Positions 7,372 to 13,294 of a stretch of DNA of 58,810 nt are shown here, piece after piece. The position numbers and the translations under genes are program-made. The stretch is taken from positions 1 through 58,810 of IMG/VR virus record IMGVR_UViG_3300021197_000369, one strand, 5' to 3'. Every line of letters starts with the position of its first letter. The stretch's first letter is position 1. Under the pieces are notes generated by a model, which had not been told where the DNA came from, did not search any database, and worked only from the letters and a program-made list of their open reading frames with translations. The stretch comes from a virus.

Positions 7372-7830
7372 CTATGCGGCTAGTTCATCAGATATGCGCC
7401 ACGAATTGCGCCATTCTCTAGTGCTCGGTAATTGTTGCTTTTTGCATATTACCATCTTCGGCTTATTGCCGCTATCCCAATTCTGCCAGACGTGCTGTGG
7501 TACATCCTTCTGGATTAGGTATTCGATTGCTTGCTCTTCCGTTAGAGGACCAATTGGCTCTGTCTGGTGCAGCAGATAACCCCGTGTATGCTTCTTGAAG
7601 TCCGGCTGCGCCTCATCCTTTGCCAGTTCCCAGTACACCCACACAGGCGGCAGGATACCGCCCTGCAATGCACACGCCATCCAGTTAGGGTCAGCCACCA
7701 GTATCTTGGCGCACTCGTCAACGCTGTTCTCATAGACAACACGGTAGTCTGACTGTACACCGTCTAGGTTTTCCTTTGCCCAGCATAGGCGGTCAAACAG
7801 GTGGGTGCCTTGAAATTCTGGTGTGTTCAT
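7372..7830 (-). CDS. Conserved hypothetical protein in the tail-fibre block
   Basis: This 152-residue protein starts at MNTPEFQGTHLFDRLCWAKE, chosen because seam 4 supplies its ribosome-binding site. It is mixed alpha/beta and rich in tryptophan (PNWMACALQGG, PPVWVYWELAKDEAQ, PQHVWQNWD). The region before residue 60 resembles small phage proteins encoded beside fibres. No catalytic motif was recognised. It could be a fibre chaperone or a virion component. Confidence 0.5.
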   Translation of the reverse strand: MNTPEFQGTHLFDRLCWAKENLDGVQSDYRVVYENSVDECAKILVADPNWMACALQGGILPPVWVYWELAKDEAQPDFKKHTRGYLLHQTEPIGPLTEEQAIEYLIQKDVPQHVWQNWDSGNKPKMVICKKQQLPSTREWRNSWRISDELAA

Positions 7831-7844
7831 TATGCAAGGTCTCC
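7829..7844 (-). promoter_or_regulatory. Gene-junction seam 4
   Basis: The minus strand reads GGAGACCTTGCATAAT before the ATG at 7830. It is the GDLA end of the 7830-8219 gene and the ribosome-binding site of the 7372-7830 gene. Here the downstream gene is not a GDLA paralogue, so the seam joins unrelated modules. Confidence 0.75.
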
Positions 7845-8219
7845 AAAAGTTGTGTAGCACAAAATCTTGGGGTCACGCTCAGTGCCGCCAGTGTCTGTGC
7901 AAAAAGCAGAACCGTTACTGGCAGTGCTTTCATAAGGGAGTACCCATAATCTGTTACCAGTGCTGTCTGTATTATTGTCATCTGTTTTACCGCTTACTTG
8001 CAGACAATAATTAACCGCATCAAGAGATGCTGTATAATTACACTGCGAATCACCAGTCGCATTATCTGCAATGCTGGCAACATTAAAACTTGTGTTAACT
8101 GTCGTAGTGTCTTGATTGTAGTGTGCGTGTACCTTCGCACTACCATTCACCACATACTGCGTATCAAGTGACCCAGCGGTGCTGTGTTCAATCTGGTCTG
8201 CTACAATTTTACCAGCCAT
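7830..8219 (-). CDS. Short fibre protein of the GDLA family, copy 4
   Basis: This 129-residue protein starts MAGKIVADQIEHSTAGSLD, has TQYVVNGSAKVHAHYNQD and SIADNATGDSQCNYTASL, and ends CYTTFGDLA. It contains four cysteines. The NGSAK block matches copy 1 closely, showing a recent common ancestor or gene conversion. It shares one base with the C1q-like gene upstream. Confidence 0.65.
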   Translation of the reverse strand: MAGKIVADQIEHSTAGSLDTQYVVNGSAKVHAHYNQDTTTVNTSFNVASIADNATGDSQCNYTASLDAVNYCLQVSGKTDDNNTDSTGNRLWVLPYESTASNGSAFCTDTGGTERDPKILCYTTFGDLA

Positions 8220-8710
8220 TATGCGACAAACCTTCCTCTAAAATAAGAGTATGTTCCTTGTGGACCCACAAATGCATCACTTCCAGCATCTGATTTACCA
8301 AAAACTGAGATATAATCATTTGCAGCAAGTTCTATGAACATCCCTGTGCTACCAATTTCAAAGTCATTATTAGTAGAGTCAGATGTATCGAGTCTTAATT
8401 GTGGTTGAAAGTTTAATAGTGACCCGTTTTTTGCAAAATCAAATCTAAACACGTCATTTGCACTTCCACTTATAAAATACATTTCAAATTCATATATACC
8501 AGCTACTGGTGCAGTATATCTACAAGATGAACCATCATAATCACTTCCTCTGTTTATCTGTACCTGAGTAAAAAAAGTTACTTCTGCTGAAGAGGTTCCC
8601 AATGTTAAATCTATTCCACCGCCACCAGAACCTCCAACTGCGACTGCATGAAAAATTGAAAGGTTTGGTTGAAGCAATTGATTGCCGGATGCTTGCAATA
8701 TTGCACTCAT
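8219..8710 (-). CDS. C1q-like receptor-binding fibre domain protein
   Basis: This 163-residue protein has a glycine run (GGSGGGGIDL) and then a single beta domain with CRYTAPVAGIYEFEMYF. That matches the C1q-like domain of the protein at 4532-5632 and the general APVAGxYxF signature. Here it stands almost alone, without the long N-terminal modules of its paralogue. It ends with YSYFRGRFVA. A trimeric tip that contacts the host surface is the likely role (inference). Confidence 0.7.
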   Translation of the reverse strand: MSAILQASGNQLLQPNLSIFHAVAVGGSGGGGIDLTLGTSSAEVTFFTQVQINRGSDYDGSSCRYTAPVAGIYEFEMYFISGSANDVFRFDFAKNGSLLNFQPQLRLDTSDSTNNDFEIGSTGMFIELAANDYISVFGKSDAGSDAFVGPQGTYSYFRGRFVA

Positions 8711-9099
8711 GCTAAGTCTCCGTGAATTGTATTATTCAAGTTATCATAGTCAAGTTGAGCATCACCGGTGTCATGTTCCGCCAATGCGTTTGCTGTGTTT
8801 ATTCTATAATGAGCTGTAGTCTGTAAAGAATTATTTCCTAGGTGTGAAAACAAATAACTACCATTCAAAGAACAACTAGAAGTGATTGAGTATCTCACAG
8901 AACCCATATTATTTGTGAGTACTGAATCTGTCCTTCCGGCACCATCATCCGTTAATGAAGACGTATTAAAACTTCCTTGTATGGTATGAGTGTTGCTACT
9001 TATAGTAGCATTTAACCATTGTTTCGCTGCATGCTGCTTAGTCAGCGTAGCCGCACCGCCACTCGTGCTTTGTATAGTATCTGCTTTTAACGTACTCAT
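8707..9099 (-). CDS. Short fibre protein of the GDLA family, copy 5
   Basis: This 130-residue protein starts MSTLKADTIQSTSGGAATLT, then KQHAAKQWLNATI and SLTDDGAGRTDSVLTNNM, and ends NNTIHGDLA. It shares the anchor and the (S)LTDxGxGxFT element with copies 2 and 3 but has a distinct middle. It overlaps the upstream gene by four bases. It is probably a small tail appendage. Confidence 0.65.
   Translation of the reverse strand: MSTLKADTIQSTSGGAATLTKQHAAKQWLNATISSNTHTIQGSFNTSSLTDDGAGRTDSVLTNNMGSVRYSITSSCSLNGSYLFSHLGNNSLQTTAHYRINTANALAEHDTGDAQLDYDNLNNTIHGDLA
8708..8721 (-). promoter_or_regulatory. Gene-junction seam 5 (variant)
   Basis: The minus strand reads GGAGACTTAGCATG. It encodes GDLA with a TGA stop that overlaps the ATG of the 8219-8710 gene (ATGA). 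It is a variant of the seam found at 5631, 6005, 6421 and 7829. Confidence 0.65.
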
Positions 9100-9584
9100 A
9101 GTATCACCAATGTTCCACCCGTAGCTACTGTGACTGTTACACCGTTTGCTATTGTTATTGGCCCTGTCGCAGAAGCATTTTCTGTAGCAGCAATCGTGAC
9201 ATTACTTGATATGGTCTGGTCATTAGTTTGAAACACGTCTGTTTTAGTTTTGTTGGAACCTGACGTAAATAATGCACCAGAGACAGTAGCTGCTGTATCG
9301 TTGGCTTCAAAACGAATAGCACGTTCAGAAAATCCACGGTACACGACATACACATTGCCTGTTCCAGAACCCGGAGCCGAACTAAAGGTTAGAGTTGTTC
9401 CGGTAGCTGTGTATGCGTTGCCGGAACCCGGTTTTTGTTGGACGTTGCTTACAAATACTTCTAGCTCTTCTGATAAATTTACAGCACGATTTAGTGTAAA
9501 CGCGGTTGTAGAACCGTCGCCGTCAAAAGATTGACTGGTCGGGGTTGCTATGGATTTTGCTGGATTGCCGCCTAGATATGACAT
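9096..9584 (-). CDS. Tail fibre protein with GDGSTTAFTL module
   Basis: This 162-residue protein starts MSYLGGNPAKSIATPTSQ, followed by SFDGDGSTTAFTLNRAV and an 80-residue beta module ending VYVVYRGFSERAIRF. A repeat tail follows (QTISSNVTIAATENASATGP, then NGVTVTVATGGTLVIL). The first module is paralogous to the N-terminus of the protein at 4532-5632. The hydrophobic C-terminal ladder is typical of fibre shafts. It shares one base with the next upstream gene. Confidence 0.7.
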   Translation of the reverse strand: MSYLGGNPAKSIATPTSQSFDGDGSTTAFTLNRAVNLSEELEVFVSNVQQKPGSGNAYTATGTTLTFSSAPGSGTGNVYVVYRGFSERAIRFEANDTAATVSGALFTSGSNKTKTDVFQTNDQTISSNVTIAATENASATGPITIANGVTVTVATGGTLVIL

Positions 9585-9913
9585 TAGGTGATCTCCAGTA
9601 CCGACACCGTTACATCTGCGGCTGAAGCCTGACTTGCAGTGATTCGTAGAATATCACTTGCGTTCATAACAATTTTTTGGTCTCCGCCCACTGCAACTAA
9701 AGACGAGCCAACAGGAACAACGGCAGATTTTACAATGTGCACATTATCACCGTCGTTGTTAATTAGCTGTACGTTGACTGTAATGGTAGCGGTAAGAATA
9801 TTTGCGATATTCAGACCAATAATGGTTGTTTCTGTAGCTGACGGACAAGTATAAACGTCTGCGTTTGCCGTGCCTACCGCTGTGTCTGTAAATGTTTTAA
9901 AAGCGTTTGCCAT
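9584..9913 (-). CDS. Small virion protein
   Basis: This 109-residue protein has the content MANAFKTFTDTAVGTANADV, TCPSATETTIIGLNIANIL and SSLVAVGGDQKIVMNASD, then a beta-rich end. Proteins of this layout are common in marine phage structural operons next to fibres and adaptors. A structural role is likely; the exact place in the tail is unknown. Confidence 0.6.
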   Translation of the reverse strand: MANAFKTFTDTAVGTANADVYTCPSATETTIIGLNIANILTATITVNVQLINNDGDNVHIVKSAVVPVGSSLVAVGGDQKIVMNASDILRITASQASAADVTVSVLEIT

Positions 9914-9917
9914 GTTG

Positions 9918-10298
9918 TCATCCTAATGCAATTGCAAACGCCAAGGCGTTTGGATCCTGTTCTGTAAAACCTTGTATGCTTCCGCTAGCATCTAAGAAAA
10001 CCATTTTTTCTGCTGGTAAAGTACAAAAGACTGTACGAGTTCCTGAAGTCCAATTCACCGCAGCATCTGAATTAGTGGACTGCAAGATTGTTGTACGAGC
10101 TAATGTGGTGCCAGAGGCTGTGTAAGTTCCAATGCCTGTCTCAAAGTCCGTGCCGTCGGTGCATGTGTAATATGTAGTATTACTATTGCCTATCTGACCA
10201 AAAGTTTCAAAACCAGTGACTGCACCAGCTAAAGTATATGTGCCAGTGCCTGTTGTGGTTGTTGTTTCTTTAACACGATCTTTGAGCACTAGTGCCAT
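9918..10298 (-). CDS. Virion structural protein
   Basis: This 126-residue protein begins MALVLKDRVKETTTTTGTGT and has TLAGAVTGFETFGQIG and SGTRTVFCTLPAEKMVFLDA. This pattern (KDRVKETTxTTGTGxxxLxGA) is widespread in marine podophage and siphophage structural genes near fibres. It overlaps the upstream gene by one base. It probably forms part of the tail or fibre attachment; direct evidence is lacking. Confidence 0.6.
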   Translation of the reverse strand: MALVLKDRVKETTTTTGTGTYTLAGAVTGFETFGQIGNSNTTYYTCTDGTDFETGIGTYTASGTTLARTTILQSTNSDAAVNWTSGTRTVFCTLPAEKMVFLDASGSIQGFTEQDPNALAFAIALG

Positions 10299-10741: not shown

Positions 10742-11389
10742 TTAAGTGCGTGGCCTATCAGGTAGACCTCTCCTGTAGGCATCACTATTCTCTCTAGCTT
10801 CTGCCAAATCTTTTAGACGCTGTATTTCCTGTGCAAACCGTTGTTCATACAGTTGCATCATATCTCCTTCGCCCTTCATGTAAGTATACGCCTCGACCAA
10901 TGAACCGTAAAGAAGGACATTTGGAGCGTTAGTACTTAACCAAGTTGTACCGCTGTCCACGCCTGCCGTCAAACTTGTTGGACGATAGTAGTAATGCAGT
11001 TCTGTTGTGTAAGCTACATCTGGTGTAGGGCTAACTATGAAGTTGTTTACATCGAAAATACCGTAGTATTTTGGAGTTCCGTTAGCATTTTTATCTATCG
11101 CATACTGTTGAACAAAGTTAACATCTTTGAAATCTAAAAACGATTTACTGCCTGTGGTTGTTATCTGTAAAGAAAAAGAGGCAAGGTAATCACTAGGCAC
11201 TGACAAATACTCGCTGCCAATTGTTAAGTTTGCGTTTGCGTTTTTGCGAAATAATTCCAGATCAACAAGTGTGAACACTCGATCTTCTGCACTGCGTATG
11301 AACACAGGCAGGTTTGTCACGAAAGTTGTTTCCGTGTTTTCCGCAAAATCCTGAATAGCTGTTTTTAGCTCTGCATATGTAAAAGACAT
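10742..11389 (-). CDS. Head-tail adaptor protein (SU10-like)
   Basis: This 215-residue protein is mostly helical and begins MSFTYAELKTAIQDFAENTE followed by FIRSAEDRVFTLVDL, the start expected for SU10-type phage adaptors. The middle has SEYLSVPSDYLASFSL and the end has long helices (QLYEQRFAQEIQRLKDLAEA). Such proteins dock under the portal and continue the DNA channel of a short tail. It lies near a second adaptor-like gene at 12626-13294. The assignment rests on pattern, length and context. Confidence 0.65.
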   Translation of the reverse strand: MSFTYAELKTAIQDFAENTETTFVTNLPVFIRSAEDRVFTLVDLELFRKNANANLTIGSEYLSVPSDYLASFSLQITTTGSKSFLDFKDVNFVQQYAIDKNANGTPKYYGIFDVNNFIVSPTPDVAYTTELHYYYRPTSLTAGVDSGTTWLSTNAPNVLLYGSLVEAYTYMKGEGDMMQLYEQRFAQEIQRLKDLAEARENSDAYRRGLPDRPRT

Positions 11390-11399
11390 TTTATGTTCA

Positions 11400-12053
11400 C
11401 TATACTATTGTTATGTTTCCAACCATGCCGCTATGAGTGGTGCATTGATATACCAAAGACGTATCACTAGGCTCATGCGGAACAATAAATTGAGTTAACC
11501 CCTGAGTGCTATTGAAATTATCTGTAACACCTGTTGTAAAAGCCGAGCCGCCAGAAGAAGTTCTTATCTGTAGCGGGTGACCGCTAACATATGAAGAGTT
11601 ATCTATCAGGTAAGTGTGACCTTTGTAAAAGCTAAAATTGGGGTTGTTTCCAGCAGTAGCCCCCGGTCCAGAAAACTGATAAGCAGATCCGGTAGCCGCT
11701 GTAGTTGTATACTTGGTCACTGGACCAGAGGTTTCATCATTTAATTTAATCCAGTTACCCCCATGAGCAAAATAAAGACCGCCCGTTGCATGAACATGCG
11801 CTACAGCCCCATGATATGTGGATGCACTTGGTAAATCACTAAGAGCGGCATAATAGAATACAATTTTATTAGCACCGGAACTAACATCCAAAAGACCATT
11901 TGCATCTATGATATCAGTTAAGACATCAGAACTATTTCCTAACGCTGCATAAATTTCGTTAAAGTTGTCGTTTATTTTGTCCGCACCAGCACGAAGACTA
12001 TCTCCAGTGCCGTCGTTCGCGGTTGTTCCAATTCCTACTGCCTGCTTTGCCAT
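11400..12053 (-). CDS. Fibre protein with a C-terminal cupredoxin-like domain
   Basis: This 217-residue virion protein has three parts. Residues 1-40 (GTTANDGTGDSLRAGADKIN, NDNFNEIYAALG) are a tail-fibre N-terminal motif. Residues 65-105 (LPSASTYHGAVAHVHATGG, FAHGGNWIKL) form a small module seen in marine phage fibres. Residues 125-217 form a beta domain with GHP (His159) and then YQCTTHSGM (Cys204, His207, Met210). One His plus C-x2-H-x2-M is the full ligand set of type-1 copper proteins, with the spacing used by amicyanin. Copper binding is inference; the fold may have been kept only as a stable adhesive domain. It lies between two adaptor-region genes. Confidence 0.65.
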   Translation of the reverse strand: MAKQAVGIGTTANDGTGDSLRAGADKINDNFNEIYAALGNSSDVLTDIIDANGLLDVSSGANKIVFYYAALSDLPSASTYHGAVAHVHATGGLYFAHGGNWIKLNDETSGPVTKYTTTAATGSAYQFSGPGATAGNNPNFSFYKGHTYLIDNSSYVSGHPLQIRTSSGGSAFTTGVTDNFNSTQGLTQFIVPHEPSDTSLVYQCTTHSGMVGNITIV

Positions 12054-12626
12054 TTAACCCTCGTCGAAAGTCTTACTTGTTGAGTCGAGTGTAACATTTG
12101 TTGCATCAAAGGTCGATGTGGTTGAAGTTGCTACACCCGGAGCAACTGTTGCATTGGTGCCACCACCTCTCGTGTTTCCTACCGACGCTGTGTCCCCAGT
12201 GATAGTAATAGTGTAAGAATCACTATCTACAACAGTAATTTGATATCCTACCGACTTTTGAAGAGCAGTGGTTGAAAACCCATCAAATGCATTTGTTTTA
12301 CGAAGTATAACAACATCTGATGTGCTGCGGTTATGAGAGGGTTCAAATACAGTAATTGTTGCGGATCCAGAGGAGCCAGATTGAAAAGGATTACTTATTA
12401 AAAGTTTTTGACCTTCTGTCTCAGTCCGTTGATCTGGTCTTGGCTGATATAAAGCTTGCGGGTCAGAACCCGGGCGAATAGGTTCCAACTGAGGATGCTT
12501 TATTTCATATTCATCAGGTCCTACTTTTAAACCGTTCCACTCAGTAATCATTTCGGACAAACGGTATCTAAAACCCGATCTGTCCGAGTAGCCCCAAGCT
12601 TTTTTACCTGAAGCATATCGTGCCAT
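12054..12626 (-). CDS. Conserved structural protein of the adaptor cluster
   Basis: This 190-residue protein begins MARYASGKKAWGYSDRSGFR, then YRLSEMITEWNGLKVGPDEY and EIKHPQLEPIRP. This conserved N-terminal 50 residues is found next to adaptor genes in marine phages. The second half is Ser/Thr-rich with a domain containing SVGYQITVVDSDSYTITI. It starts one base before the stop of the adaptor-like gene. It is likely a virion protein at the head-tail joint; the function is unproven. Confidence 0.6.
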   Translation of the reverse strand: MARYASGKKAWGYSDRSGFRYRLSEMITEWNGLKVGPDEYEIKHPQLEPIRPGSDPQALYQPRPDQRTETEGQKLLISNPFQSGSSGSATITVFEPSHNRSTSDVVILRKTNAFDGFSTTALQKSVGYQITVVDSDSYTITITGDTASVGNTRGGGTNATVAPGVATSTTSTFDATNVTLDSTSKTFDEG

Positions 12627-13294
12627 TAGTTAACCCTCAGATACTGCATACTAGGTTGAATCTTGAGTGGCACACGATCTTCGTCTTCTGCCGCTGCACG
12701 TTGAAACTCTTCTTCATAAATAGACTTCAACAATTGCACACGATCTGGCGCTTTCTTTACAGACAGGTAATAGGCTAAACCAGCTACCATACAAGGTAAA
12801 AACCTGAAAGGTGCATCTCCTGTATTTACCAGTGTATCAACATCTTCAATACGCTTTACATAATAATACACTAAAGTATCGGTAGAGTTTTCTGGTGTTG
12901 CCCACAGTGTAATCTGAGGAGCTATTTGACGATCATAGTAGTACTGACTAGGACGGCCCTGTGTTGTTTTATTAGGTAAGGATAAGTACTCTGATCTAGA
13001 CATACGAGTCAGTTCAGTATCCACGTCGCTACGACGCAGAACAACTTCAAGTAAATCTGTAAAATTAGAGTTTAATGTGTATGTTGCAGTGCCTTGTGTC
13101 AAAGCTTGAGTAGATTGCTTGACAGTCCACAAGTTTAAACCACGGTTAGCCCAGTCAGCAAACATCAAGTTCATTGATCTACGCGCTGATTTAGCGTCGT
13201 AAGCGGTGCGAACCTCAAGGCCACATCGCTCATACGCTTCTTCGATAATCTCAGCTACGTCGAGATCAAAGTCTGTAGATCCTGAAGTTGCCAT
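12626..13294 (-). CDS. Head-tail adaptor / tail accessory protein (P22 gp4-like)
   Basis: This 222-residue protein has helical ends around a beta core. FDLDVAEIIEEAYERCGLEV, MNLMFADWANRGLNLW and CMVAGLAYYLSVKKAPDR match the general pattern of phage gp4-like packaged-DNA-stabilisation or adaptor proteins, with LLEVVLRR in the middle. Twelve copies normally bind the portal after packaging. It lies in the cluster 10742-13294 downstream of the capsid genes. Family assignment is by pattern only. Confidence 0.65.
   Translation of the reverse strand: MATSGSTDFDLDVAEIIEEAYERCGLEVRTAYDAKSARRSMNLMFADWANRGLNLWTVKQSTQALTQGTATYTLNSNFTDLLEVVLRRSDVDTELTRMSRSEYLSLPNKTTQGRPSQYYYDRQIAPQITLWATPENSTDTLVYYYVKRIEDVDTLVNTGDAPFRFLPCMVAGLAYYLSVKKAPDRVQLLKSIYEEEFQRAAAEDEDRVPLKIQPSMQYLRVN

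Follow-up and report, generated by a model that had tools for sequence, protein, structure and literature searches.

The window analyzed here, a stretch of 58,810 nucleotides that corresponds to positions 1 to 58,810 of the IMG/VR virus record IMGVR_UViG_3300021197_000369, encodes a virion-type protein whose C-terminal domain is predicted to have a cupredoxin fold and carries four residues, His159, Cys204, His207, and Met210, that probably constitute a copper-binding site of the type-1-like kind. Moreover, this cupredoxin-type domain is a mobile module of the tail-tip, baseplate, and fiber proteins of marine phages, in which the ligands are kept. The preliminary description of the protein had reported the ligand set as a single instance; the instance is real, but the domain recurs in many virion proteins. 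Cupredoxins are well known, and among the open-licence papers listed by literature searches none describes a virion protein with type-1 copper.

The ORF does not overlap its neighbors (10742-11389 and 12054-12626), and its regions and proposed ligands are the following.

12053-11400, minus strand: whole ORF, 217 residues, ATG start; virion-type protein with three regions.
11871-12047, minus strand: T4 gp9/gp10 N-terminal domain, residues 3-61 (PF07880, E-value 7.1e-9, 36.4 bits for a cut-off of 25).
11724-11870, minus strand: small middle domain, residues 62-110, with an HxH motif; common to some cyanophage tail proteins.
11763-11813, minus strand: middle-domain stretch YHGAVAHVHATGGLYFAHGGNW, residues 81-97, with four histidines; its HxH resembles the iron motifs proposed in marine fibers.
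11403-11723, minus strand: predicted cupredoxin-type domain, residues 111-217 (AlphaFold2 model and structural matches).
11577-11579, minus strand: codon of His159 (CAC), the first of the proposed copper ligands, conserved in 34 of 34 domains.
11442-11444, minus strand: Cys204 codon TGC, proposed thiolate ligand, conserved in 33 of 34 domains.
11433-11435, minus strand: His207 codon CAT, proposed second His ligand, conserved in 33 of 34 domains.
11424-11426, minus strand: Met210 codon ATG, proposed axial ligand, conserved in 32 of 34 domains, with one further Met shifted by one residue.

The assignment of the N-terminal domain is supported by a match to T4 gp10 in the PDB (1.4e-5), and virion attachment would be the role of this gp9/gp10-type region, judging from its sequence relationship. 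Also, the whole protein is matched by PHROG 677, 'baseplate wedge tail fiber protein connector' (6.7e-47), in two stretches, the best of them being residues 100-217; with this match of the C-terminal domain and the gp9/gp10 N terminus (PF07880), the protein belongs to that family. A full-length model has a pLDDT of 66.2 and is poor outside the C-terminal domain, so no fold is claimed for residues 1-110, although a helix appears at 19-37 in this low-confidence model. Residues 60-112, which comprise the middle domain, are matched by 35 phage records, and His81, His86, His88, and His97 are invariant in 67 distinct sequences (the window and its close homologs).

The invariant HxH of the middle domain brings in a different metal. 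According to PMC11705849, phage fibers hold iron by HxH motifs, as in T4 gp37, and marine phages are proposed to carry iron in this way (the 'Ferrojan' or 'Trojan Horse' idea). The window protein has in common with these systems a tail protein that would bear a metal and the presence of an HxH, so that zinc or iron bound for trimer or fiber stability could be envisaged for the predicted site as well. However, the iron of the gp37 type is held by the HxH of a fiber trimer (PMC11705849), whereas the His-Cys-His-Met site predicted here would be formed within a single chain. Furthermore, the HxH of the window protein belongs to a different domain than the His-Cys-His-Met set. This set in a cupredoxin fold is, as a matter of general knowledge, a copper site, and we therefore consider another metal quite improbable. 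Copper would then be the metal of the predicted site by analogy with the known cupredoxins.

The fold of the C-terminal domain was predicted by AlphaFold2 on residues 111-217 with 43 IMG/VR relatives, which gives a model with a pLDDT of 88.6 and a pTM of 0.81 that corresponds to a Greek-key β-sandwich of cupredoxin type. In this model, His159 (domain residue 49) directly precedes strand 51-54, Cys204 (domain residue 94) is the last residue of strand 89-94, the next-to-last strand, and His207 and Met210 (domain residues 97 and 100) are located in the loop ahead of the last strand. The His, Cys, His, and Met are thus placed by the model in the canonical order and loops, and this layout is the type-1 layout of cupredoxins. 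A search with VIA-align returns cupredoxin copper proteins in 50 of the 50 matches listed, the best being 2dv6 (Z of 10.1, rmsd of 2.4, 93 residues aligned), which aligns through the N-terminal part of a copper nitrite reductase with three domains, and rusticyanin reaches a Z of 8.5. Also, the models of two cyanophage connector proteins in BFVD match at a TM score of 0.86 by query length. The preliminary description had proposed a beta domain joined to a fiber N terminus, and both halves of this proposal are borne out, by the PF07880 match (7.1e-9) and by a confident model of cupredoxin type (pLDDT of 88.6) for which structural searches of the PDB find cupredoxins.

A search of the PDB with Foldseek likewise places rusticyanin first (2.9e-4) and pseudoazurin second, the E-values being weak in this case, with only one row at or below 1e-3. 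Among the 50 Foldseek matches listed, Ig-fold proteins appear from rank 11 onward, and one BFVD relative is labeled 'Immunoglobulin domain-containing protein'. Both observations would suit a domain that is a metal-free structural core, an Ig-like or cupredoxin-like decoration whose copper-site resemblance is a relic. What distinguishes such a relic from a working metal site is the behavior of the four residues among relatives.

All four residues are kept in the 80 close IMG/VR homologs listed (84-98% identical), which were fetched with patterns that include none of the four. For the distant relatives, an alignment of 34 domains was compiled, consisting of the window domain and 33 domains from 19 phage records hand-picked for spread among the best 60 of 327 tblastn matches; the profile used to extend this set was not ligand-blind. 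Pairwise identity in the alignment has a median of 27% and a minimum of 12%, and each of the four residues is nevertheless retained in 32 to 34 of the 34 domains. Besides the four, only P160 and Y202 reach at least 32 of 34, which makes six such columns in total, and a Pro follows the first His in 32 domains. Moreover, of the two remaining histidines of the domain, His146 is found in 2 of the 34 and His193 in 3. The probability that the four named columns fall among six of 107 is 2.9e-6 if the columns are taken as independent, and the conservation of His159, Cys204, His207, and Met210 exceeds chance. The residues named in the preliminary description thus stand with the numbers it gave them, as a complete type-1 ligand set, and the observation is stronger than first stated. 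Cys204 is, in addition, the sole cysteine of the protein.

A ligand-blind survey indicates that the set is kept or lost as a unit. The profile for this survey drew on all 34 rows of the alignment, of which one lacks the ligands, and the four ligand columns in it were masked; in a first round it found 288 domains in 168 sequences, of which 238 carry all four residues and 50 lack Cys-His-Met. Once widened by more distant loci, the survey comprises 459 domains, from the window and from 332 of 335 loci, the blind profile finding no domain in the other three (L324, L328, and L347); 13 of 348 loci had been left out, namely the window's own locus, a MAG contig, and L168-L178. A His at position 159 together with a Cys...His...Met motif is present in 409 of the 459 domains, in locus sets that lean somewhat to ligand carriers because one or two of the patterns used in each of five scans for the larger sets contain ligand residues. 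The spacing of the ligand loop varies among the 409, being C-x2-H-x2-M in 312, C-x2-H-x3-M in 85, C-x4-H-x2-M in 11, and C-x2-H-x5-M in one (L246), a doubtful case in which the Met is displaced or lost and which is still counted among them. The C-x4-H-x2-M loop (for example, CTVPSHASM) occurs in 11 domains of L293 and L295-L304, among 58 from L259-L316, and resembles the azurin-type spacing.

The 50 domains without Cys-His-Met (for example, L137:3358-3741) are all copies of a single paralogous domain of the long protein whose gene follows gp9, annotated 'baseplate wedge subunit' in P-SSM4. They form a single cluster at 40% identity, 49 of them coming from one set of loci and one from P-SSM4, and in 50 of 50 cases the ORF also holds a ligand-bearing copy. 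A His near position 159 is kept in 9 of the 47 ligand-less domains examined, and the three that have a stray Cys are counted among the 50. Profile A1, made of 33 of the 34 domains with the ligand-less one omitted, finds this clade in three records as partial matches (3e-8 to 9e-8), and the clade would be, from the sequences, the same domain as the ligand-bearing copies. The name 'gp10-like' was considered for the long protein after gp9 and dropped; a review has g10 missing from cyanomyoviruses (PMC2984593).

That this clade is still recognized, even by a profile built without its members, agrees with a metal-free core whose ligands are a relic. However, a relic should shed its ligands singly, and the 459 domains are all-or-nothing, with at most one doubtful Met, in L246. 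In the ligand-bearing copies the residues also stay in place while the length of the loop changes, and the domain's remaining histidines, His146 and His193, are seldom retained in the 34-domain alignment. Joint loss of the ligands, and their retention while the loop changes length, are both predicted by a metal site and not by a packing core, and we regard the relic as unlikely. Free loss of Cys204 or His207 was looked for and not found, the losses being concerted and confined to the one paralogous domain. The suggestion in the preliminary description that the site might stabilize the fold is weakened in turn, because the ligand-less clade still scores as the same domain; a clade that has the domain but not the site makes stabilization alone a poor explanation for why the site is retained.

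The sequence relationship to known copper proteins is more restricted than the predicted fold. Among PDB entries, the 33-domain profile matches nitrite reductase, plastocyanin, and amicyanin (E-values of 5e-5 to 1e-3). The alignments shown for these matches place the first His opposite that of the plastocyanin 1kdi, but against amicyanin and the plastocyanin 2plt it is displaced by two positions. A plastocyanin gene (PF00127, over cut-off) is present in 7 of the 11 cyanophage records searched, and against these seven proteins profile A1 pairs the four residues with the four ligand positions (E-value of 1.6e-4). The same pairing is obtained with profile A4 (43 of 46 ligand-bearing representatives and none of 19 ligand-less ones), weak on its own (E-value of 0.013), and profile A2 aligns only the Cys-His-Met end. 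When the four columns are masked, the score of the plastocyanin match drops to the level of shuffled columns, so the likeness in sequence comes down to the ligands themselves, and the predicted fold is the one independent line of support.

As for curated families, the window protein has no NCBIfam match, no Copper-bind match, and no copper family in Pfam. Its relatives remain below the curated cut-offs, the best reaching 21.0 bits against the 21.2 of PF00127 (a domain of P-SSM2) and 23.4 against the 110.2 of the amicyanin family TIGR02657. In Pfam, 13 of the 33 domains of A1 weakly match an At5g54830-like domain (best 0.0043). The window domain shares with amicyanin, plastocyanin, and rusticyanin the predicted cupredoxin fold and the order and loops of the His-Cys-His-Met set, and with amicyanin also the C-x2-H-x2-M spacing. 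However, it differs from them in being fused to a virion domain, in having His-Pro instead of His-Asn, and in reaching no curated cut-off. The label amicyanin-like used in the preliminary description is therefore right for the spacing of the ligands, but it does not extend to family membership, and the link in sequence to plastocyanin vanishes on masking.

The presence of plastocyanin genes in the cyanophage records suggests a further origin for the domain, a host or phage plastocyanin (petE) captured and turned into a virion part. Plastocyanin is carried by cyanophages as a metabolic gene, according to PMC3037559. However, the ligand-blind comparison with the seven plastocyanins is at the shuffled level, and the residue that follows the first His is Asn in seven of seven cyanophage plastocyanins and Pro in 32 of 34 module domains. 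Such a capture is therefore extremely improbable. In P-SSM2 (L082), four matches to the domain profile are found in addition to a separate PF00127 gene over cut-off.

The closest known structures belong to the N-terminal part of the copper nitrite reductase of Hyphomicrobium (residues 25-134; 2dv6, 6tfo, and 6tfd), with Z values of 9.6-10.1 over 93 residues; this part holds a type-1 copper. It differs from the window domain in being part of a respiratory enzyme, and the identity between them is 18-20%. Among phage proteins, the gp9 of T4-like cyanophages (PHROG 677) has the same C-terminal domain and the same gp9/gp10 N terminus as the window protein, and identity between the window domain and 12 such phage domains is 32-47%. 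The window protein is, in contrast, about half as long, and the terminase and capsid of its phage are near those of HTVC027P and 023Pt_psg01. Cyanophage gp9 proteins are already annotated as connectors, and no copper site is named in those of their record annotations that were seen.

The terminase and capsid genes of the window are near those of pelagiphages and their kin. The TerL of the window is 55-61% identical to those of HTVC023P, HTVC027P, and 023Pt_psg01, and its capsid protein is about 70% identical to those of the last two; we take the relatives of this type to be podoviruses. The counterparts of the two flanking genes (12054-12626 and 10742-11389) are directly adjacent in HTVC027P and 023Pt_psg01, and the ORF therefore occupies a junction that is otherwise closed. 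In 023Pt_psg01, the module is found at the front of an SU10-type adaptor (THQ...CTAHSGM; L170:33696-34793), whereas the window homolog of this adaptor (12626-13294) is without it. In another record (L256), the module is inserted in a homolog of the window gene 9918-10298, with flanks that match residues 1-58 (64%) and 65-110 (61%) of that gene and the domain in between.

Other phages carry the module in yet other proteins. In T4-like cyanophages it is present in the C termini of gp9 and in the next long protein, in L343 in a gp53 baseplate wedge protein (PF11246, 3.8e-9), and in L193 (2060-3052) within a minor tail protein of the lambda gpL type (PF05100, 1.6e-23). A gpL-type N-terminal motif is also found in 60 of the 80 module-carrying ORFs of the group L179-L258. 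A cyanophage query finds the module in 349 of 50,697 records of a phage collection, 341 of which are named Synechococcus, Prochlorococcus, or cyanophage, and at least 599 IMG/VR stretches encode a relative (599 of the 600 listed). On the cellular side, the genome scan for relatives gave a single contig of a Winogradskyella MAG, with a match to residues 1-50 only. Promiscuous Ig-like domains are likewise movable beta domains present on many virion proteins; unlike the module, they have to our knowledge no conserved metal ligand set.

The module is not found in every relative. A profile search detects no domain of cupredoxin type in HTVC027P, and S-PM2 gives one partial match only (5.3e-4) and no intact copy, with no Cys-His-Met motif in the ORFs of at least 150 residues within the 3.1 kb fetched around this match. 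Then, the module would not be essential. S-PM2 also bears on the idea, raised in part by the preliminary description, of a redox or light sensor that gates the adsorption of cyanophages. Type-1 copper is redox active, which would be consistent with such a sensor, and the light variant of the idea was prompted by light-dependent adsorption. However, S-PM2 is reportedly a phage that was tested and is light-dependent in its adsorption, and it has only the partial match described; moreover, the module is also present in a relative of SAR11 phages, namely the window itself. A sensor of this kind thus seems very unlikely.

Returning to a type-1-like copper site as the preferred reading, the C-terminal cupredoxin would hold one copper ion through His159, Cys204, His207, and Met210, and the T4 gp9/gp10-type N terminus would display this domain on the virion. 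The domain may fold metal-free inside the cell and acquire its copper either on lysis or once in seawater; the loaded site would then serve the contact with the host surface, either through a copper-dependent grip or through copper offered to the host. The position of the module on baseplate, tail-tip, and fiber proteins points to host contact, and a role in host attachment is possible, although we propose it tentatively. In its broadest form, for T4-like cyanophages, phages with gpL-type tail tips as in lambda, and pelagiphage-like phages, the copper-loaded cupredoxin would be a common movable infection part of ocean phages, with a copper-dependent tail-tip contact and with free phages carrying seawater copper; this extension is speculative and, in our judgment, rather doubtful.

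Should the site indeed bind copper, a large number of marine phages would bear a redox-active copper where the host is contacted, and viruses would join the list of seawater copper ligands. Also, the copper dependence of adsorption would be testable in the cultured cyanophages Syn9, P-SSM2, and P-SSM4, and virion proteomes of cyanomyoviruses exist (PMC3037559). If the broad reading is true, it would be a copper counterpart to the 'Ferrojan Horse' idea for iron. Finally, a separate observation in the window concerns the row of small genes at 7372-10298, in which the gene at 8219-8710 encodes a C1q-like domain (PF00386, 3.1e-8).
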